Positions 1 to 63,270 of a stretch of DNA of 64,000 nucleotides are shown piece after piece (position 1 is the first letter of the stretch; each line of letters begins with the position of its first letter). The notes below the pieces were generated by a model. It was not told where the DNA came from and searched no databases. It saw only the letters and a list, made by a program, of their open reading frames with translations. The position numbers and the translations under genes were made by a program. The stretch comes from Candidatus Nitrosopumilus sp. (lineage in GTDB: Archaea; Thermoproteota; Nitrososphaeria; Nitrososphaerales; Nitrosopumilaceae), in contig JAPFQF010000005.1 of the NCBI GenBank assembly GCA_029255365.1, positions 1 through 64,000 of the forward strand. The letters run 5' to 3'.

Positions 1-1139
1 TACTGCATAGAGATTAACAGCGGGTCCGGTCTGTAAAATTCACCGTGCTCGTCTGCAAGTTTGTTTAACTCGTCTACGATTTTTTTGATTCCAATCTCTT
101 TCGCAGTCTCAAACAACGGTTTTTTGAGACCAAGTCCAAGCTTGGCAGCTTTCTCGATCTCTTCGATGTCGCTTGCCCCATTTGAGACAAGCCATGCCGC
201 ATTGTTTAAAATATTTGCAACAATCTGAATTGGGTTGAATTTCCCTGCAAGCTCTTCTGAAAGTGCAACGCGCTCGTACTTGTCGTCAGAATACTTGTAA
301 TACCCTTCGCCTGACTTTTGCCCGAGTTTTTTATCGTCAAACATCTTCTCGACAAGAGGATGCGGATTGATCACTTTTTTGTCACGCAAATGCATTTCGA
401 CAGTTGCTTTGTGGATGACATCCATTCCTGTAAAGTCTGCCAATTCAAATATTCCCATTGGAAATCCAAGATTGAACTTGACTGCCGAGTCTATCTCTTC
501 AAGCGTTGCACCCGTTCTATCTTTAGCAAAACATGCTTCGTGAACCATGGGGATGAATAGCCGGTTGATTATGAATCCAGGGACGTCCTTTCTGCACAGC
601 ACAGCCACCTTGTTCACCGATTTTACGTATTCTTGAGTTAAATCTGTAATCTCTTGGGCAGTTTTCTCACCTGGAATGATTTCTACTAGCTTCATCAGCT
701 GTGGGGGGTTGAAAAAATGAATTCCTATGAATTTTTCAGGACGTGATGTCGTGTTTGCAATCTCCGTAATTGGCAACGTGCTGGTATTTGACGCAAAGAC
801 CACTTCCGGCCCTGCAACTTTGTCTAACTCTGCATACACTGATTTTTTTAATTCCATTATTTCCGGAACTACTTCAATAACTAATTCTGCATTTTTTACC
901 GCATCTGCTAAATCGACAACTGGCGTAATTCTTGCAAAAATTGCATCCCCTTCTTCTCTACTAATTTTTTCTTTTGAAACTAGTTTATCCAAACTCCATT
1001 TTATTTTCTCCATAGCTTTATCTAAAAATTCTTGTTTGATATCTCGTAATACTACATTGTACCCTGCAGTTGCCGAAACTTGGGCAATTCCGTGTCCCAT
1101 GACGCCGGAACCCAGAACTGTAATGTTTTTCACTGCCAC
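1..1139 (-). CDS. 3-hydroxyacyl-CoA (3-hydroxybutyryl-CoA) dehydrogenase, 3' end beyond window
   Basis: NAD-dependent oxidation of an (S)-3-hydroxyacyl-CoA. In Thaumarchaeota this family serves the 4-hydroxybutyrate half of the 3HP/4HB carbon fixation cycle. It is not in the ORF track because the frame has no stop inside the window; I read it from the reverse complement. The N-terminus is VAVKNITVLGSGVMGHGIAQ, with the Rossmann GxGxxG signature, followed by SNTSTLPITEIA and the family motif HFFNPPQLMKLVEI, then a C-terminal dehydrogenase domain (GFIINRLFIPMVHEA). About 379 residues are present. The start is GTG at 1139 or GTG at 1133, with a TATA-like stretch (cattataaagg in gene sense, about 1164-1174) some 25 bases upstream, which fits a leaderless transcript. 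Family assignment is firm; the exact substrate is inferred from lineage. Confidence 0.9.
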   Translation of the reverse strand, partial: MAVKNITVLGSGVMGHGIAQVSATAGYNVVLRDIKQEFLDKAMEKIKWSLDKLVSKEKISREEGDAIFARITPVVDLADAVKNAELVIEVVPEIMELKKSVYAELDKVAGPEVVFASNTSTLPITEIANTTSRPEKFIGIHFFNPPQLMKLVEIIPGEKTAQEITDLTQEYVKSVNKVAVLCRKDVPGFIINRLFIPMVHEACFAKDRTGATLEEIDSAVKFNLGFPMGIFELADFTGMDVIHKATVEMHLRDKKVINPHPLVEKMFDDKKLGQKSGEGYYKYSDDKYERVALSEELAGKFNPIQIVANILNNAAWLVSNGASDIEEIEKAAKLGLGLKKPLFETAKEIGIKKIVDELNKLADEHGEFYRPDPLLISMQ

Positions 1140-1272
1140 AATTTAGCAAAAACCGAGTATCCTTTATAATGTATTTCAAATGGAATCCTGGTAATCTAGT
1201 TACTATCTGCACCCATTTCTATACCGTGAGGATGCACATTTTTGTTGAATGCATTCAGACAAAAAACTTGTT

Positions 1273-2028
1273 TTAATCACTGTCCACTTCATTTTTCTTT
1301 TTATTGAATTTGTTGTATCCTTCTTGGTTGTATCCTTCTTTGTCGTAACCTAGGTGATCATATCCTAGTCCGTCATACCCATTACTATCATACCCGTTAC
1401 CATCATACCCGTCTAAATCATACCCTTCTTGGTTATATCCGTCTTCATCATACCCGTTACCATCATACCCGTCTTCATCATGCCCGTCTTCATCATACCC
1501 GTCTTTGTCGTATCCTTTTTTGTCATACCCGTCTAGGTCATACCCGTTTTTGTCATACCCGTTTTTGTTAAACCCGTTTCGGTTAAACCCGTTTTTGTCA
1601 TACCCGTTTTTGTCATACCCATCCTTGTCATACCCATTTTTGTTAAACCCGTCTGTATCAAAAGCAATTTTTGTATCTATGTGAATTCCATATGTGGAAA
1701 AACCTCGACTGTCATACCCTTCTTCATCATACCCGTTTTTGTCATACCCGTTTTTGTTAAACCCCTCTCTATTGTAACCCTTGAAATCATACCCGTCTTC
1801 ATCATACCCATCTTTGCGTCCTTTTTTGTCGTATCCTTTTTTGTCATACCCGTTTTTGTCATACCCGTTTTTGTCATACCCGTTTTTGTCATACCCGTTT
1901 TTGTTAAACCCGTCTCCATCATACCCGTTTTTGTCATACCCGTTTCGGTTAAACCCGTTTTTGTCATACCCATCTAGGTCATATCCATATTTGTCAAACG
2001 TACGACTAAATCTATCAAACAAACCCAT
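1273..2028 (-). CDS. GYDKN-type pentapeptide tandem-repeat protein
   Basis: Function unknown. After a short start (MGLFDRFSRTFDKYG) almost the whole protein is a run of roughly 45 five-residue units of the form G-[YF]-[DN]-x-x, most often GYDKN, GFNRN and GYDED. The regular phase is broken twice, near KKGRKDGYDED and near GFSTYGIHIDTKIAFDTDG. The tail is lysine/acid rich (KFNKKKNEVDSD). The track starts at 2049, but MGLFDRF at 2028 is the likelier start because the separate small gene at 4285 begins MGLFNRK. There is no signal peptide or membrane segment, so it is probably cytosolic. The Asp/Asn pattern could bind metal ions, but I see no canonical EF-hand loop. The 98- to 102-residue ORFs in other frames here are repeat artefacts. 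Confidence 0.75.
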   Translation of the reverse strand: MGLFDRFSRTFDKYGYDLDGYDKNGFNRNGYDKNGYDGDGFNKNGYDKNGYDKNGYDKNGYDKKGYDKKGRKDGYDEDGYDFKGYNREGFNKNGYDKNGYDEEGYDSRGFSTYGIHIDTKIAFDTDGFNKNGYDKDGYDKNGYDKNGFNRNGFNKNGYDKNGYDLDGYDKKGYDKDGYDEDGHDEDGYDGNGYDEDGYNQEGYDLDGYDGNGYDSNGYDGLGYDHLGYDKEGYNQEGYNKFNKKKNEVDSD

Positions 2029-2068
2029 AACAGAATTCCATGAATTCAATTCAGATAAGCATTTTCAT

Positions 2069-2122
2069 GCCTGTCTGCGTCCATTTTGAACCCCCATTTA
2101 GTAGGTGAATCCCCGTGGATTC
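2069..2122 (+). repeat. Conserved intergenic element, copy 1, ending in a hairpin
   Basis: This 54-base stretch resembles 4153-4206: both begin GCCT[G/A]TCTGCGTC and both end in TGAA[T/C]CCCCGTGG plus the stem complement. Here the end folds as GAATCC-CCGT-GGATTC. In copy 2 the stem is AACCCC-CGT-GGGGTT, so pairing is kept while the bases change. It sits in the divergent spacer between the repeat protein and the small zinc-ribbon gene. Function unknown; it could be a structured RNA 5' region or a small dispersed element. Confidence 0.5.
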
Positions 2123-2173
2123 TAAATTGAATCTTTTTTTGTCCCTGAGGAAGGTTCAGGCCTTTAAGGACTC
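2118..2173 (+). repeat. Stem-loop plus T-run plus conserved 45-mer, copy A
   Basis: Stem GATTC-TAAATT-GAATC is followed by seven T and then the block AAGGTTCAGGCCTTTAAGGACTC. A second copy lies at 2349-2404, on the other side of the 36-residue zinc-ribbon gene. Over 45 aligned bases (2129-2173 against 2360-2404) I count 9 differences, all transitions, and the stem changes in a compensating way (GATTC/GAATC to GATCC/GGATC). It resembles an intrinsic terminator with a conserved tail. Confidence 0.5.
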
Positions 2174-2221
2174 GTTCAAAATCAAGATCATTCTTAATTC
2201 TTAGTTTGTTTTGAATGTATT

Positions 2222-2332
2222 ATGGCTTATACTAGATGTGACAAATGTGGAGAACTTAGATTTGATGGAAAAATTAATCTTTGTGCAAATTGTGGCCATC
2301 GAATTACAAAGACTGCCAAGACATTTGAGTGA
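2222..2332 (+). CDS. 36-residue zinc-ribbon protein
   Basis: Below the track's size cutoff. The product MAYTRCDKCGELRFDGKINL continues into CANCGHRITKTAKTFE. Two knuckles, CDKC (residues 6-9) and CANC (21-24), 11 residues apart, make one zinc ribbon of the kind that mediates nucleic-acid or protein contacts. The track ORF 2211-2444 covers the same DNA in another frame and has no recognisable pattern. The gene is bracketed by two related stem-loop elements (2118-2173 and 2349-2404). Function unknown. Confidence 0.7.
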   Translation: MAYTRCDKCGELRFDGKINLCANCGHRITKTAKTFE

Positions 2333-2348
2333 AATTAGAAATGCCATA

Positions 2349-2404
2349 GATCCTAAATGGGATCTTTTTCTATCCCCAAGAAAGGTTCAGGCCTCTAAAA
2401 ACTC
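2349..2404 (+). repeat. Stem-loop plus T-run plus conserved 45-mer, copy B
   Basis: Stem GATCC-TAAATG-GGATC, T-rich run, then AAAGGTTCAGGCCTCTAAAAACTC. It matches copy A at 2118-2173 with transition-only differences. It begins 17 bases after the zinc-ribbon stop and so could also terminate that transcript. Confidence 0.5.
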
Positions 2405-2638
2405 ACTTTGTATTTCTAAAACAGGGAATTTAGGCACGAAATAATTTTACAAAATTTACAATAAATTTAGCAATAAATCATGTAAAAAATAGGACGATAT
2501 TATCTGACTAATCTTTGAGCTTTGAACGATAATTTCTAAAGTATTTGCAGATGTTATGGGGTGCAATATTGTAACAAAACACATCGGGTCTTAGTGGAAT
2601 CAAGTATTTGGCAGAATACTTTATGAATCTCAATTTAG

Positions 2639-2830
2639 ATGGTAATCTACATGGTTATTTTATACGCAATCATTGGAGCTGTGACCACTATTGGCGCCAT
2701 ATTATTACGGTATTATCTTGCAGAACGCAAAAAAGCACCCGGGAATGATAAATTTTGTTATAATTGCAATCTAAATTTTCCAAGCAACTACAATGTATGT
2801 CCAAAATGCAGGATAAAATTTGGTAGTTGA
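2639..2830 (+). CDS. Membrane-anchored small zinc-ribbon protein
   Basis: 63 residues. An N-terminal hydrophobic segment (MVILYAIIGAVTTIGAILL) is followed by a basic stretch and a zinc ribbon with CYNC and CPKC knuckles (FCYNCNLNFPSNYNVCPKC). The likely layout is one transmembrane helix with a cytosolic zinc ribbon. A TATA-like actttatga at about 2618-2626 favours translation from the second ATG (2651) on a leaderless transcript, giving 59 residues. It lies just ahead of the sugar dehydrogenase gene. Function unknown. Confidence 0.65.
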   Translation: MVIYMVILYAIIGAVTTIGAILLRYYLAERKKAPGNDKFCYNCNLNFPSNYNVCPKCRIKFGS

Positions 2831-2834
2831 GAAA

Positions 2835-4138
2835 ATGAACACTATATTTTTGATAATTGTTGTATGTGGATTGTTTATTCCAACAGCATTTGCTCAAGAG
2901 TATCCTGAACTTGGAGTAAAAGTAGAGACGGTAGCTGAAAATCTTACCGTACCTTGGAGTATTGACTGGACTCCTGATGGAATGATTCTGTTCACCGAAA
3001 GAAACGGAGATCTAAGGGCAATTCAAAATGGCAATTATTGCAAGAGCCGTTATTATCACTAGGAGTTGCAGGTGTAGAAGGAGGGTTGTTAGGTGTTGCA
3101 GTTGATCCAAACTACTCCGCGAATAATTACATCTATCTGTATTACACTTACAATGAATTTCTCTCGACATCAAACAAACTAGTTCGCTATCAAATAGTAG
3201 ATGGCATAGTGAATGAAGATAAAGTTTTGATTGAAGGAATTCCAGGAGGGCCGTTTCATGACGGTGGACGAATTCAATTTGGGCCTGACAAAAAACTTTA
3301 CATTGCAACTGGCGATGCTGGAAATCCAGAGTTATCACAGGATCTAAATTCATTGGGGGGAAAAATTTTGCGAATCAATTCAGACGGAACAATACCTGAT
3401 GATAATCCTTGGAAAAATTCTCCAATTTATTCAACAGGTCATAGAAATCCTCAGGGGATTGATTGGGATGATTCAGGGAATTTGGTTGCAACAGAGCATG
3501 GACCGTCAGGATGGAGAGGAACTGCGCATGATGAAGTTAATGTAATAATTTCTGGTGGGAATTATGGGTGGCCTGACGTGATAGGCGATGAAACAATGGA
3601 TGGTTTAAAGAATCCAATCTTGCATACTGGAGAAGATACATGGGCGCCATCAGGTGCAGAATTTTACTATGGGGATAAAATCCCACAATGGTTTGGAAAA
3701 TATTTTGTTGCGACACTTCGTGGTAATCATCTACATATGATTGATTTTGATTTACAGAATAATTCTATAGTTTCACATGAAAAAATATTTCAAGATGAAT
3801 TTGGAAGATTAAGGGATGTTCAAACAGGACCTGACGGATTTTTGTATATTCTAACAAGTAATCAGGATGGACGAGGCGCACCAAAGATAAACGATGATAG
3901 AATTCTTAGAGTTCTTCCATTAGATGACACAATTGTAAACAATACAAATTCCGAGATCATTCCAAATAATGTTCAAAGTAATGATGATTCTTGTCCTGTA
4001 ATTCATTTTTTAAATTATGATTGGAAAGATTGTGGATCAATTTGGACTTGGAGTGTATTGGGAATTCCACTTTTAGTAATAATTACTGCACCCGTTGGAA
4101 TTATTTTGGCATTTGTAATTTGGAGAAATAGAAAATAA
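2835..4138 (+). pseudogene. PQQ-dependent sugar (glucose/sorbosone) dehydrogenase family, frameshifted
   Basis: A six-bladed beta-propeller oxidoreductase family that oxidises sugars with PQQ. The start at 2835 (MNTIFLIIVVCGLFIPTAFA) is a signal peptide. Blade motifs include NLTVPWSIDWTPDG, GGLLGVAVDPNY, GGRIQFGPDKKLYIATGD, GGKILRINSDG and GHRNPQGIDWD, and it ends in a transmembrane helix (IPLLVIITAPVGIILAFVIW) and WRNRK, so it is probably anchored outside the membrane. The reading frame breaks near 3033-3040: the first frame runs ...IQNGNYCKSRYYH-stop while the family sequence resumes as LQEPLLSLGVAGVEGG in another frame. One extra A after ggca would restore NGKLLQEPLLSLG. This is a real frameshift or a one-base assembly error. 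The TTG start in the track at 3038 is an artefact of the break. Confidence 0.8.
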
Positions 4139-4152
4139 AATCTAGATCTTAC

Positions 4153-4206
4153 GCCTATCTGCGTCTCATTTTATCCCCAAAATGGCAGCTGAACCCCCGT
4201 GGGGTT
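4153..4206 (+). repeat. Conserved intergenic element, copy 2, ending in a hairpin
   Basis: Pairs with 2069-2122 (see there). It carries an extra potential stem CATTTT-ATCCCC-AAAATG and the terminal hairpin AACCCC-CGT-GGGGTT. It begins 14 bases after the dehydrogenase stop and about 80 bases before the small zinc-finger gene, so it could end one transcript or lie in the leader of the next. Confidence 0.5.
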
Positions 4207-4284
4207 GAACCTGACCCAAAAATCTTGAAGATTATAAATGACGTTTAGCATCATTTTTAATGTATTTCAAAATTTTATCATTCA

Positions 4285-4452
4285 ATGGGCCTATTCAATC
4301 GTAAGAAAGATGACGAGAATAAAACCAAATGCGAAACATGCGGTACTGATCTGCATGATTCGGAGCGTCTGAAAAAACATGTAAAAAAAGCACATGGAAA
4401 CATACCTGCCAAAAAATTGGATCCTAACGGCGGCGATGGTGGAATTTGGTAG
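4285..4452 (+). CDS. 55-residue C2H2 zinc-finger protein
   Basis: Not in the track. The product MGLFNRKKDDENKTKCETCG continues into a classical C2H2 finger, C-x2-C-x12-H-x4-H (CETCGTDLHDSERLKKHVKKAH), then a glycine-rich end (GGDGGIW). It probably binds nucleic acid or a protein partner. TATA-like attataaatg (about 4230) lies some 50 bases upstream. The stop is directly followed by the ATG of the next gene with no spacer, so the two are co-transcribed. Confidence 0.75.
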   Translation: MGLFNRKKDDENKTKCETCGTDLHDSERLKKHVKKAHGNIPAKKLDPNGGDGGIW

Positions 4453-4731
4453 ATGAAACTAAGCTCCAGTCAGAAAACTAGCCTTGTATTTGTTGGCGTC
4501 TTTCTGTCTGCCGGAATCGTATTGTCTACGCTGGTCTTTCCGTTCTGGAATTTGATTCGTGAAGACGTGTTTGAAGAAGTAACCATCCTGGCAAATGACG
4601 GCGGTATCTGCTATGTGGAGACTGTCGACATGGTTCCAAAAACCATTGAGAATTGCACGTTGAAATCCGGCGATGTTGCCACTATCAAATTTGGGGAAGG
4701 CCTTGCATGGGCAACTATAGTGGGACCATGA
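4453..4731 (+). CDS. Small single-pass membrane or exported protein
   Basis: 92 residues. N-terminal hydrophobic helix TSLVFVGVFLSAGIVLSTLVFPFW is followed by an extracellular-type domain with two cysteines (GGICYVETVDMVPKTIENC) that could form a disulphide. It starts directly at the stop of the zinc-finger gene. No family recognised. Confidence 0.7.
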   Translation: MKLSSSQKTSLVFVGVFLSAGIVLSTLVFPFWNLIREDVFEEVTILANDGGICYVETVDMVPKTIENCTLKSGDVATIKFGEGLAWATIVGP

Positions 4732-4768
4732 TAGATGATTTAATATTTTAAAGTGTTTGTAAAATTAC

Positions 4769-5176
4769 ATGGATTGTATTTTTTGCAAAATTGTTTCTGG
4801 CGAAATAAGCACAAGATTCCTTGGGGAGACTGCGCACTCGGTTTCTTTCTTGGACGTATTTCCACTTGCGGCAGGACACGTGCTGGTCATTCCAAAAAAT
4901 CACCATCGGAAAATCCAGGATGTAAGTGTTGAAGAAAACACTGATCTGTTTTCACTGGTTCGTGAAATGGTCTCAAACGTTGACAAAATCACCGGCTCTA
5001 CCCTGATTGCAATACACAATGGAAAGGATGCGGGTCAGGAGATTCCACATGTCCATGTGCATCTGGTTCCTAGAAGTAATGGTGATTCCGCAGGCCCGAT
5101 TCACAGCATGTTTGGTTCTCCAGCAAATCCGTCTGAATCTGAAACGGATGATCTGTTTGATAGATTGAAAATCTAG
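4769..5176 (+). CDS. HIT (histidine triad) family nucleotide hydrolase/transferase
   Basis: 135 residues, the usual size of Hint-type proteins, which hydrolyse nucleoside phosphoramidates or adenylates. It opens with the typical MDCIFCKIVSGEI, where two Cys may bind zinc, and has the catalytic triad HVHVHLVPR near residue 95. A TATA-like taatattttaaag lies about 25 bases before the ATG. The physiological substrate cannot be told from sequence. Confidence 0.93.
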   Translation: MDCIFCKIVSGEISTRFLGETAHSVSFLDVFPLAAGHVLVIPKNHHRKIQDVSVEENTDLFSLVREMVSNVDKITGSTLIAIHNGKDAGQEIPHVHVHLVPRSNGDSAGPIHSMFGSPANPSESETDDLFDRLKI

Positions 5177-7927: not shown

Positions 7928-8749
7928 TTATAGTTTTACTAGTTTTCTGAATTGATCATTTGTGTGCAGTTTTTGAAACACAGGCTCTTCTTTTGCCCAA
8001 CTTCTAATAATTTTTGGATTTTTTGATATTGACTGTTTTAGCAATTCCAGCGCTTGCGGGTATTCCCCCAGCGCCGCTTTGCTTCTGGACTTTGCATAGA
8101 CGATGTTCACGTTGTCTTTGTGTTTTGACAGTATTTTGTCGAAAATTTCAATCGCTTTTTCATGCTTGTTCAACTCTGCTAGCTCAATTCCTTTGTGAAA
8201 AAATGCATCCATGTGGCTGGGATTGTTCTTGTGAACTATGTCAAAACAATTCAGCGACTCTTCGTGTTTTTTCATTTTCCCCAGGATGATTCCCTTGTAG
8301 AACAGTGCGTTTGGTTTTCTGGGCTCTATTGATATGGCCTTGTCTAGCACTTCCAACGCCTCCTCTCTTTCCTGCAACTTGTCTAGCAGGACGCCTTTGT
8401 TAAAGTACGACGCTGCATTTTTAGGGTCTGCGTCTATCGCCTTGTCGTAACATTCGGCAGCTGCTTGTATGTTGCCATTTTCTGCCATCGCGATTCCTTT
8501 GTTGTTGAAAGCCTGCGAGTCTTTTGGATTAATTTCTAGCAAACTATCAAAACAAGTTATCGCGTCGCTGTATTTTTTTATCTGGTTCAGCGCAAGGCCT
8601 TTGTTGAACAACGCTGCTATGTTTTTTGAATCTTGTTTTAGAACTTTGTTGAACAGCGCTATGGCCCCCTTTGGCTGGTTTTTCTCCATCAAGGACATTG
8701 CATTATACAGCACATCCTCTGCACCGTCTTTAGATCCAAACAGTCCCAT
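7928..8749 (-). CDS. TPR-repeat protein
   Basis: 273 residues with about seven consecutive tetratricopeptide repeats (e.g. AAALFNKGLALNQIKKYSDA, AQAFNNKGIAMAENGNIQAA pattern), a protein-interaction scaffold. It starts MGLFGSKDGAEDVL and has no signal peptide, so it is cytosolic. The C-terminus leaves the repeat pattern at SWAKEEPVFQKLHTNDQFRKLV. Partners unknown. Confidence 0.88.
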   Translation of the reverse strand: MGLFGSKDGAEDVLYNAMSLMEKNQPKGAIALFNKVLKQDSKNIAALFNKGLALNQIKKYSDAITCFDSLLEINPKDSQAFNNKGIAMAENGNIQAAAECYDKAIDADPKNAASYFNKGVLLDKLQEREEALEVLDKAISIEPRKPNALFYKGIILGKMKKHEESLNCFDIVHKNNPSHMDAFFHKGIELAELNKHEKAIEIFDKILSKHKDNVNIVYAKSRSKAALGEYPQALELLKQSISKNPKIIRSWAKEEPVFQKLHTNDQFRKLVKL

Positions 8750-60423: not shown

Positions 60424-63270
60424 TTATTTATTTCTTCTAGATTTAGCTTTTGCCTTTGGTTTTACCTTTGGTTTTGATTTAGCTTTTACCTTTGGTTTTG
60501 ATTTGGCTTTTGCCTTTGGTTTTGATTTGGTTTTTACTTTTGGTTTTGATTTGGTTTTTACTTTTGGTTTTGATTTGGTTTTTACTTTTGGTTTTGATTT
60601 GGCTTTTGCCTTTGATTTTGCAATTGTTGGTTGCTCGATTGCTGCCTGTGCCGCTGCAACTATTGCGATAGGGATTCTGTGTGGTGATGCGCTCACATAA
60701 CTTAGCCCTGCACCGTGACAGAATTTAATGGAACTTGGGTCTCCTCCATGTTCACCGCATATGCCAACTTCCATGTTTGGTCGTAATTCTCTGCCTGCTG
60801 CAAGACCCATTTTTATCAAACTGCCTACGCCGTTTACATCGATGGATTGGAATGGATTTCTTTCTAGGATTTCTTTTTCCATGTATTCTGGGAGGAATTT
60901 TCCTTCCACATCTTCTCTGCTGAAACTAAATGTCCCCTGCGTCAAGTCGTTTGTACCGAAACTGAAGAATTCTGCAGTGGTTGCAAGTTCGTTTGCAGTT
61001 AATGCGGCTCTTACGACCTCTATCATGGTTCCAAAATTGATGTTTAGTTTCATATTGTGTTTAGACTCTGTTTCTTTTTTGATTCTGTCGTAAATTTTCT
61101 TGATGTGGTTTAGCTCTGCGATGCTGCTAATCTGCGGAATCATTATTTGGGGATGGGCTTTTACATTTTTCTTTGTTAGTTCTACCAGTGCCTCAAAGAC
61201 TGCTCGAATTTGCATTTCGTATATTTCTGGGTATGTGATTCCAACCCTTACCCCTCTGTGTCCCATCATAGGATTCACCTCCGCAAGCTCCCTCGCTCTT
61301 TTTAGGACGATTTTTGCTTCTGCAATTTCACTTGCTGCATTCTGTAATTCTAATTTGCGAATTTTCTCTGACAACTCTTCAGGATTTGGTAGGAATTCGT
61401 GCAATGGCGGGTCTAGCAATCTGATTGTGACTTCGTAACCTTCCATAGCTTGTAGAATTTCAATAAAGTCACTTTTCTGCAACTCTCCTAGTTTTTGGAG
61501 AATCTTGCTTCGCTCGTGTATGTTTTCAGCCATGATCATGTCTACAAATAGATTGATTCTGTCGCTTCCGTTGAACATTCTTTCAGTTCTACACAGGCCG
61601 ATTCCTTGGCCTCCAAACTCTCTTGCCAGTTTTGCGCCTTCAGGGGTGTCTGCATTTGCTCTGACCCCAATCCTCTTTATTTTTTGCGACCATTCTAGAA
61701 TTTGTTTAAAGTCTTCGTTTACTTTTGGCTCTATGGTTGGAATGTCTCCGATGTATACGCTTCCGGAACTGCCGTCAATTGTGATTGTGTCGCCTTCATG
61801 TACGACTTTTCCATCCACACTGCACTGCTTGTTGTCCAAATCGATTTTCAAATTAGAACATCCGACGATACACGGCTTGCCCATTCCTCTGGCTACCACT
61901 GCCGCATGAGATGTTTTGCCGCCTCGGCTTGTTAGAATTCCAACTGATTCAAAGAAGGCAGGTACGTCTTCTGGCTTTGTTTCTTCTCTGATTAGAATTA
62001 CTTTGGCGCCGTTCTTGCCCATTACCGTCGCTCTTTTAACATCCAAGACTGCGATTCCGCTTGCTGCCCCTGGGGATGCGGCTATCCCTTTAGCTAGTAA
62101 TGTAAAGTTCTTAATTTGATCAGGATCAATTCTTTTATGTAGTAACTGTTCTAATTGCTCTGCATCGAGTCTTGTTATTGCTTTATTTTTATCAATTAAT
62201 TTTTCATTGACCATGTCGATTGATGTTTTTACCATTCCGACTGCGTTCATCTTTGCATTTCTTGTTTGTAGCAAGTAAAATCTTCCCTGCTCTATGGTAA
62301 ATTCAATATCCTGTGGCTCTTTGTAGTGTTTTTCTAGTCTTTCACATGTTTCTGCTAATTGCTTGTATGATTTTGGAAGGTCCGTTTTCATATCGTCAAC
62401 CTGTTTTCCGGTTCTTACGCCCGCAACAACATCTTCGCCTTGGGCGTTGATTAGATATTCGCCGTAAATTTTGCGTGTTCCGTCTCCTGGGTTTCTTGTG
62501 AATACAACACCTGTGGCGCAGTCGTCTCCCATGTTTCCAAACACCATTGATACGATGTTTACGGCGGTTCCATCTGCTATGTCTTTTGTAATGTTGTTTC
62601 TCTCTCTGTATACAATCGCTCTTTCTCCCATCCAGCTGCCAAACACTGCCTTGATTGCAAGTTCCACCTGTTCAGTTGGGTCTGTTGGGAATTTTCTTCC
62701 TGTATGGCTATCGCAAATTTGCTTGTACTGGGATACGATCTCTCTCAATGACTGTTCGTTCAAATCGCTGTCTATCTCAACACTTTGTTTTTTCTTTGCC
62801 GCCTCTAACACGTCATCGAATTTCCTGTCGTTTACCCCGAACACTACTTTGCCAAACAATTGAACGAATCTTCTGTAGGAATCCCAGGCAAATCTTGGAT
62901 TTTTGCTTTTTTCAGCAAGCCCTAGCACCGTTTCATCGTTTAGTCCCAAGTTCAAAATAGTGTCCATCATTCCTGGCATTGAGATTGCCGCCCCTGATCT
63001 GACTGAAACTAGTAGTGGGTTTGATTTAGAATTCCATGTTTTACCTGTTTTTTTCTCTATTTTTGCAATGTTCTTTTTTACTTCTGCCATGAGTGTATTT
63101 GGCAATTTTTTATTATTTTCATAGTAATTCTTACACACCTCTGTAGTAATTGTAAAACCTGGCGGGACTGGCAGTTTTATTCTGGTCATTTCACACAGAC
63201 CTGCCCCTTTGCCTCCTAGAAGCTTCTTGTTTTTGGCGTCTCCTTCATCATAAAAATAAACCTGTTTCAT
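60424..63270 (-). CDS. ppdK: Pyruvate phosphate dikinase with lysine-rich C-terminal tail
   Basis: 948 residues. ATP-grasp domain (GGKGAGLCEMTRIKLPVPPG), phosphohistidine domain with catalytic His in TSRGGKTSHAAVVARGMGKP, and PEP-binding TIM barrel ending VGICGEHGGDPSSIKFCH. Makes PEP from pyruvate for gluconeogenesis from fixed carbon. The normal enzyme ends near residue 880; here it continues with about 65 residues of KSKPKVKT-type repeats (KSKPKVKTKSKPKVKTKSKP), which the enzyme does not need. Confidence 0.96.
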   Translation of the reverse strand: MKQVYFYDEGDAKNKKLLGGKGAGLCEMTRIKLPVPPGFTITTEVCKNYYENNKKLPNTLMAEVKKNIAKIEKKTGKTWNSKSNPLLVSVRSGAAISMPGMMDTILNLGLNDETVLGLAEKSKNPRFAWDSYRRFVQLFGKVVFGVNDRKFDDVLEAAKKKQSVEIDSDLNEQSLREIVSQYKQICDSHTGRKFPTDPTEQVELAIKAVFGSWMGERAIVYRERNNITKDIADGTAVNIVSMVFGNMGDDCATGVVFTRNPGDGTRKIYGEYLINAQGEDVVAGVRTGKQVDDMKTDLPKSYKQLAETCERLEKHYKEPQDIEFTIEQGRFYLLQTRNAKMNAVGMVKTSIDMVNEKLIDKNKAITRLDAEQLEQLLHKRIDPDQIKNFTLLAKGIAASPGAASGIAVLDVKRATVMGKNGAKVILIREETKPEDVPAFFESVGILTSRGGKTSHAAVVARGMGKPCIVGCSNLKIDLDNKQCSVDGKVVHEGDTITIDGSSGSVYIGDIPTIEPKVNEDFKQILEWSQKIKRIGVRANADTPEGAKLAREFGGQGIGLCRTERMFNGSDRINLFVDMIMAENIHERSKILQKLGELQKSDFIEILQAMEGYEVTIRLLDPPLHEFLPNPEELSEKIRKLELQNAASEIAEAKIVLKRARELAEVNPMMGHRGVRVGITYPEIYEMQIRAVFEALVELTKKNVKAHPQIMIPQISSIAELNHIKKIYDRIKKETESKHNMKLNINFGTMIEVVRAALTANELATTAEFFSFGTNDLTQGTFSFSREDVEGKFLPEYMEKEILERNPFQSIDVNGVGSLIKMGLAAGRELRPNMEVGICGEHGGDPSSIKFCHGAGLSYVSASPHRIPIAIVAAAQAAIEQPTIAKSKAKAKSKPKVKTKSKPKVKTKSKPKVKTKSKPKAKAKSKPKVKAKSKPKVKPKAKAKSRRNK
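60430..60620 (-). repeat. 24-bp minisatellite encoding the PPDK tail
   Basis: Repeats of tttggttttgatttggtttttact type (24 bp, coding KSKPKVKT or close variants) tandemly arranged about seven times at the 3' end of ppdK. Units differ by single-base changes; array length is likely to vary between strains. Confidence 0.8.

Follow-up and report, generated by a model that had tools for sequence, protein, structure and literature searches.

The question raised by this locus is whether a gene composed almost wholly of a short tandem repeat codes for a functional protein and, if it does, whether that protein is an ordered structure or a disordered polymer. The gene resides in an ammonia-oxidising marine archaeon, Candidatus Nitrosopumilus sp., on the minus strand at positions 1273-2028 of the window, i.e., the whole stretch of 64,000 nucleotides analysed here. 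Its ORF starts with an ATG at 2026-2028 and ends with a stop codon at 1273-1275, the coding part extending from 2028 to 1276, and the product of 251 amino acids is referred to as the GYDxx-array protein. Acidic and strongly hydrophilic (pI 4.4, GRAVY -1.88, net charge -23), this protein contains 49 Gly (19.5%), 49 Asp, 36 Tyr, 30 Lys, 30 Asn, 13 Phe, and 11 Glu among its 251 residues, is nearly devoid of aliphatic residues and, in a charge-hydropathy comparison, lies deep in the disordered range (0.29 versus 0.446 at the boundary).

Architecture of the GYDxx-Array Protein

A first-pass annotation of this DNA had described a protein of about 45 tandem G[YF][DN]xx units encoded by a 15-base minisatellite, and the description holds well. 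The protein contains about 41-44 such units (41 by a G[YFH][DN] count), and Tandem Repeats Finder places a 15-bp repeat of 40.2 copies at 1403-1996, with a score of 302. The array occupies residues 15-241 (1306-1986, minus strand). Within it, a four-residue unit, GRKD (residues 70-73, 1810-1821, minus strand), falls into the same column in all 12 sequences of the alignment A1; its counterparts in the orthologues are GYKD, GFKD, GYKE, or GYKN, and the unit gives the array a phase shift that is fixed in position. The degenerate unit B, GIHIDTKIAFDTDG (residues 114-127, 1648-1689, minus strand), interrupts the array over 14 residues, and G114, I115, H116, I117, T119, F123, and G127 are invariant among the 12 aligned sequences. 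Neither the short unit nor this interruption figures in the first-pass annotation.

The array is preceded by an N-terminal lead, MGLFDRFSRTFDKYG (1984-2028, minus strand), in which M1, G2, D5, F7, T10, and D12 are invariant in A1. A helical hydrophobic moment of 0.66-0.78 suggests that the lead may form an amphipathic helix, which is treated here as putative because the pLDDT of AF2 lies below 50 across residues 1-8. Neither a signal peptide nor a transmembrane stretch is visible in the archaeal protein. The start MGLF is common to the array protein and to the products of two nearby genes of the window, a zinc-finger-like protein of 55 residues (4285-4452) and a TPR-like protein of 273 residues (7928-8749).

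Conservation at Fixed Length Despite Block Turnover

Among 95 genomes of the same genus (Nitrosopumilus-type), 44 contain a match to the array protein at E ≤ 1e-10. About 34 of these by our tabulation, roughly a third of the 95, carry an orthologue, the remainder carrying paralogues, and two further genera of the family carry the orthologue as well (G145, G268). It is absent from several complete genomes, so that its presence is patchy. The first 12 orthologues, which are 66-82% identical to the window protein, show no gap inside the array. The distance between the first GYD and the last GYNKF is exactly 222 residues in 22 of the 33 distinct orthologues and 223 in three more; over three genera, the span thus lies within one residue of 222 in 25 of 33. 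In the other eight, two of which come from single-contig genomes, it deviates by multiples of five residues, some plus or minus one, and not of fifteen.

The orthologues stay in frame without internal stops, and their dN/dS relative to the window copy ranges from 0.05 to 0.23, several of the dS values being saturated. Together with the ORF and its composition, these data identify a real coding gene under purifying selection. A functionless ORF produced by a chance minisatellite would agree with a tandem 15-bp repeat that bears signs of block copying, but the low dN/dS, the open frame, the fixed length across three genera, and a conserved promoter make this origin extremely unlikely. According to the first-pass annotation, a prediction of full disorder together with absence from all related genomes would speak for chance; as to the second condition the opposite is found, because close relatives keep the array protein at the same length and under purifying selection.

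Turnover within the array is most visible in residues 128-215 (1384-1647, minus strand), where close orthologues are 58-83% identical at the amino acid level, compared with 87-96% over residues 1-127. The blocks recently copied in this region differ by species and comprise two, three, or four units at 95-100% DNA identity, i.e., a two-unit copy in L009 (100% over 75 nt), a three-unit copy in L005 (99%), and four-unit copies in L013 (99%) and L012 (95%). Despite this copying the total length of the array is unchanged, which might reflect either a conversion process that keeps length or selection on length itself.

A Solitary Gene With Its Own Promoter

In most orthologues about 40 bp 5′ of the start codon are conserved, comprising the proximal promoter CTTATCTGAATTGAATTCATGGAATTCTG (2029-2060, minus strand), and sequence further upstream is unrelated. 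A TATA-like CTTATCT is located about 30 bp ahead of the ATG, suggesting that the mRNA is leaderless. Exact or near matches to the promoter occur mainly in front of the array gene, and a related element precedes the type-B paralogues. Genes near the window copy are not found near other copies, common neighbours being confined to close relatives, and the neighbourhoods lend no support to any partner. The array gene stands alone and behaves as a single transcription unit, its promoter travelling with it while the neighbours differ.

Two covarying stem-loops had been reported beside the gene in the first pass. They correspond to two 61-nt direct repeats (2113-2173 and 2344-2404, 79% identical), in each of which a short hairpin leads into a T-run, as in a terminator. 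The hairpin and its compensatory change (GATTC/GAATC versus GATCC/GGATC) are real, but the repeats have no folding advantage over shuffled sequence (z -0.1 to -1.4) and are not part of the array gene, because the conserved upstream DNA of the orthologues ends before them. An Rfam search of window positions 1-5000 gave no match. The repeats flank an ORF of 36 residues for a zinc ribbon (2222-2332, MAYTRCDKCGELRFDGKINLCANCGH...).

Elsewhere in the window, a gene for a glucose/sorbosone dehydrogenase (PF07995, 2835-4138) is split by a frameshift or an assembly error, its signal-bearing frame (2835-3062) ending early and the remainder being read, from about 3038 onward, in another frame. At 60424-63270 on the minus strand, a protein of 948 residues, which by eye resembles pyruvate phosphate dikinase in sequence, ends in a Lys-rich tail of KSKPKVKT-type octapeptides encoded by a 24-bp tandem repeat (60455-60620).

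A Repeat Family of Archaea, Bacteria, and Viruses

Unit B follows the pattern G-x-H-xx-(T/N)-G-T-x-(Y/F)-D-xx-G, which the window copy matches in degenerate form and which recurs as GIHKVTGTKFDEDG in paralogues, as GIHKVTGTMFDEHG and GMHKVTGTKFDGEG in archaeal paralogues (L021, L212), as GIHKDTGTEYDLEG in bacteria (Clostridia), and as GIHRNGTRYDEDG (L080) and GIHCDTGTEYNEDG (L037) on viral contigs. Of 202 array frames, 24 contain the strict pattern, and residue shuffles never do. We take this recurrence as evidence that GYDxx and unit B probably constitute one repeat family, the alternative being that a common structural demand led to convergence. When G[YF][DN]xx is required five times in a row, a pattern scan retrieves 66 viral stretches; with seven consecutive units, at least 116 stretches are retrieved, which belong to Nitrosopumilaceae and to many phyla of bacteria, the matches being a mixture of some simple low-complexity or wrong-frame sequences and many clearly genuine arrays. 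If the wider family is defined by at least seven consecutive units, with or without unit B, the window protein is one of its members. A coupling of Y with D and of F with N within units was weak beyond the archaeal set (odds ratio 1.2) and was dropped.

According to Pfam, arrays are joined to VWA (L097), DnaJ plus DUF6273, OmpA, an Lcl_C-like domain with TPR, amidoligase, and PelG. In the Clostridiales protein L149 (6131-7684), a GYDxx array accompanies a DnaJ domain and DUF6273. In Cetobacterium (L267, 2486-4597) and Fusobacterium (L268, 2387-4705), the exopolysaccharide exporter PelG possesses a lipobox-like GCAS/GCTS stretch at its C-terminus, followed by a GYDxx/unit-B array, and the Cetobacterium copy adjoins pelF. 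Among 139 array proteins whose start is visible, a crude hydropathy rule assigns a signal or membrane stretch ahead of the array to 51, and the archaeal ones lack it. In mycobacteria, an unrelated conserved protein, for which a single membrane stretch is predicted, carries a GYDRW-type array (L115, L123, L137, L155, L165, L167, L181, L194, L205, L206, and L208), which is likewise gap-free in 11 species. The archaeal paralogue L021 (1462-2025, MGIFSRRDKDGYD...) ends in a zinc-ribbon-like CSKC...CSKCGK motif. The viral contigs L093 and L080 (3300027996) encode many adjacent short GYDxx ORFs and possibly belong to a large DNA virus.

No model in Pfam, NCBIfam, or PHROGs covers the GYDxx repeat. 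A tblastn search of INPHARED phages gave no match, the query possibly being masked by low-complexity filtering. Literature searches with repeat strings found no paper, and those with x-patterns returned chance text matches and one paper on a DivIVA-type motif.

Ordered Spiral or Disordered Polymer

With the 12-sequence alignment, AF2 predicts an array protein nearly without regular secondary structure (mean pLDDT 85.9, pTM 0.41), with pLDDT values of 95-96 over residues 151-220 and isolated bridges spaced 15 residues apart (Y21/Y36, N27/N42). The model of a type-B paralogue, built from only five aligned sequences, has a pLDDT of 48. Foldseek comparison of the array model with the PDB gave no match at E ≤ 10, and the single match among the viral models of BFVD (E 0.77) is meaningless. 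Since AF2 has been shown to give confident but unrealistic β-solenoids to repeats (PMC11795689), the model is not evidence by itself. Across 84 non-redundant arrays, units three apart match each other more than they do in shuffled arrays (p 0.002, all positions together), indicating a weak 15-residue period; among lags of one to seven units only three falls below 0.05, with a hint at six, and four is not enriched (p 0.71). The solenoid suggested in the first pass is a possible fold for the array protein. The pLDDT of 86 and the weak super-period point toward it, and the failure to match a PDB fold, the low pLDDT of the paralogue, and the over-calling by AF2 temper this reading.

The protein might instead be an intrinsically disordered hydrophilin or a sticker-and-spacer polymer, in which evenly spaced Tyr and Phe would serve as stickers between charged spacers, the chain would stay soluble, and reversible condensation would protect the cell against osmotic or cold stress. 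This rival is serious because the protein, with 49 Gly in 251 residues and a hydrophilicity of 1.88, falls within the compositional definition of hydrophilins, i.e., Gly >6% and hydrophilicity >1.0 (PMC11277543). In addition, charge-hydropathy predicts disorder, the paralogue is modelled with low confidence, and UCST phase separation is seen with synthetic repeats (GRGDSPYS) that include Gly, Arg, Asp, and Tyr (PMC10491311). On the other hand, unit-specific residues are kept at fixed positions, and a 15-residue period is unexpected for a disordered chain. Disordered repeat arrays usually differ in copy number, whereas this array has a fixed length despite internal recombination. A disordered polymer seems a substantial possibility, well short of an even chance.

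Other identities are harder to reconcile with the data. A divalent-cation buffer, whose repeated D-x-D-G-Y-D stretches would bind Ca2+ or Mg2+ along the chain, would make sense of the many acidic residues (49 Asp, 11 Glu), of the net charge of -23, and of D or N at the third position of nearly all units. It is nevertheless unlikely: the fifth position is N or K as often as D (154 N, 130 D, 108 K), so that there is no regular second ligand, other arrays often have E, Q, A, S, or something else at this position, and no EF-hand, RTX, or dockerin model matches the protein, its acidic ligand positions being irregular. The first-pass annotation was thus right to deny an EF-hand array, for which Pfam shows no match, and its metal-binding surface finds no specific support.

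That annotation had likewise set the protein apart from classical pentapeptide-repeat proteins (PRPs), and our results agree. Membership in PF00805 and related families is defined by at least eight contiguous repeats fitting the consensus profile, by four repeats per coil, i.e., a 20-residue period, and by a right-handed quadrilateral β-helix in a solved structure. A five-residue unit with one large residue each would fit such a protein, and many PRPs are acidic. However, the window protein and the 12 orthologues have no Pfam match at E < 0.1 except a chance match to PMG, the residue two before the aromatic one is D, N, K, or E and not a small one, the enriched lag is three units and not four, in keeping with AF2 bridges 15 residues apart, and no PDB fold matches. 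The profile searches rule out the classical family, the period speaks against it, and a coil of four units per turn is very unlikely.

Discussion

Over the disordered polymer we favour, tentatively and with somewhat less than even confidence, a fixed-length, turn-rich, acidic cytosolic scaffold, a role that we infer from the features described above. Each [YF][DN]xxG unit would form a tight turn, capped by D or N and closed by Gly, and about three units might complete one revolution of an extended spiral, so that the number of units would set its length. Evenly spaced Tyr and Asp/Asn/Lys side chains would then form an extended, multivalent, and acidic surface for holding a partner, and the N-terminal MG(L/F)(L/F)D(R/K)F may tether the rod to the inner face of the membrane. 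In favour of the scaffold we count the gap-free array in 12 species, its fixed 222-residue span, the dN/dS values, the length-neutral block copying, the AF2 model, the period of three units, the gap-free mycobacterial array, the lack of a signal peptide, and the N-terminal hydrophobic moment. Against it we count the composition on the side of disorder, the solenoid bias of AF2, the pTM of 0.41, the poor model of the paralogue, length exceptions in steps of five residues and not fifteen, and neighbourhoods that support no partner.

The GYDxx repeat, for which neither a database entry nor, by PDB fold search, a solved structure was found, spans archaea, bacteria, and viruses and is fused to exporters, adhesion-type domains, chaperones, and viral enzymes. 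It is possible, though doubtful, that GYDxx and unit B form a single family of archaea, many bacterial phyla, and viruses that adopts a solenoid of three units per turn absent from fold libraries and sets length as a stalk or scaffold, which in Fusobacteria would belong to the Pel exopolysaccharide exporter. The archaeal array protein is small, single-domain, and soluble by composition, and its natural variants share a fixed length. As a clean test case, it could decide between ordered spiral and disordered polymer for such arrays, and it would be a demanding real-world challenge for structure predictors prone to over-calling repeats. Its fixed length amid active recombination of the array raises the question of how copy number stays constant.

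Like PRPs with the Rfr fold (MfpA, Qnr), the array protein consists of tandem five-residue units with one large residue and possibly forms a spiral of fixed length; unlike these proteins, with A(D/N)LXX units and four per turn, it has G[YF][DN]xx units, a signal at three units, and no Pfam match. PF25296 (Decapeptide/DotG, IcmE) is matched weakly by the bacterial array L143 (E 9.6e-6, 25.8 bits versus a cutoff of 45), which stays below the cutoff, and neither the window protein nor its orthologues match it. YD/RHS repeats (PF05593) have a YDxxG turn motif in common with the array and are about 20 residues long and contain strands; the array differs from them and has no Pfam match. With hydrophilins and LEA-like proteins the array protein shares a Gly content >6%, a hydrophilicity >1, acidity, and predicted disorder, but, in contrast to them, its aromatic repeats are strictly phased and its length is fixed. 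Resilin- and elastin-like polypeptides are similarly built from short Gly-containing units, with Tyr and Asp in the resilin-like ones (PMC10491311), whereas the array protein is archaeal, has neither a signal peptide nor Pro, and keeps a constant length.
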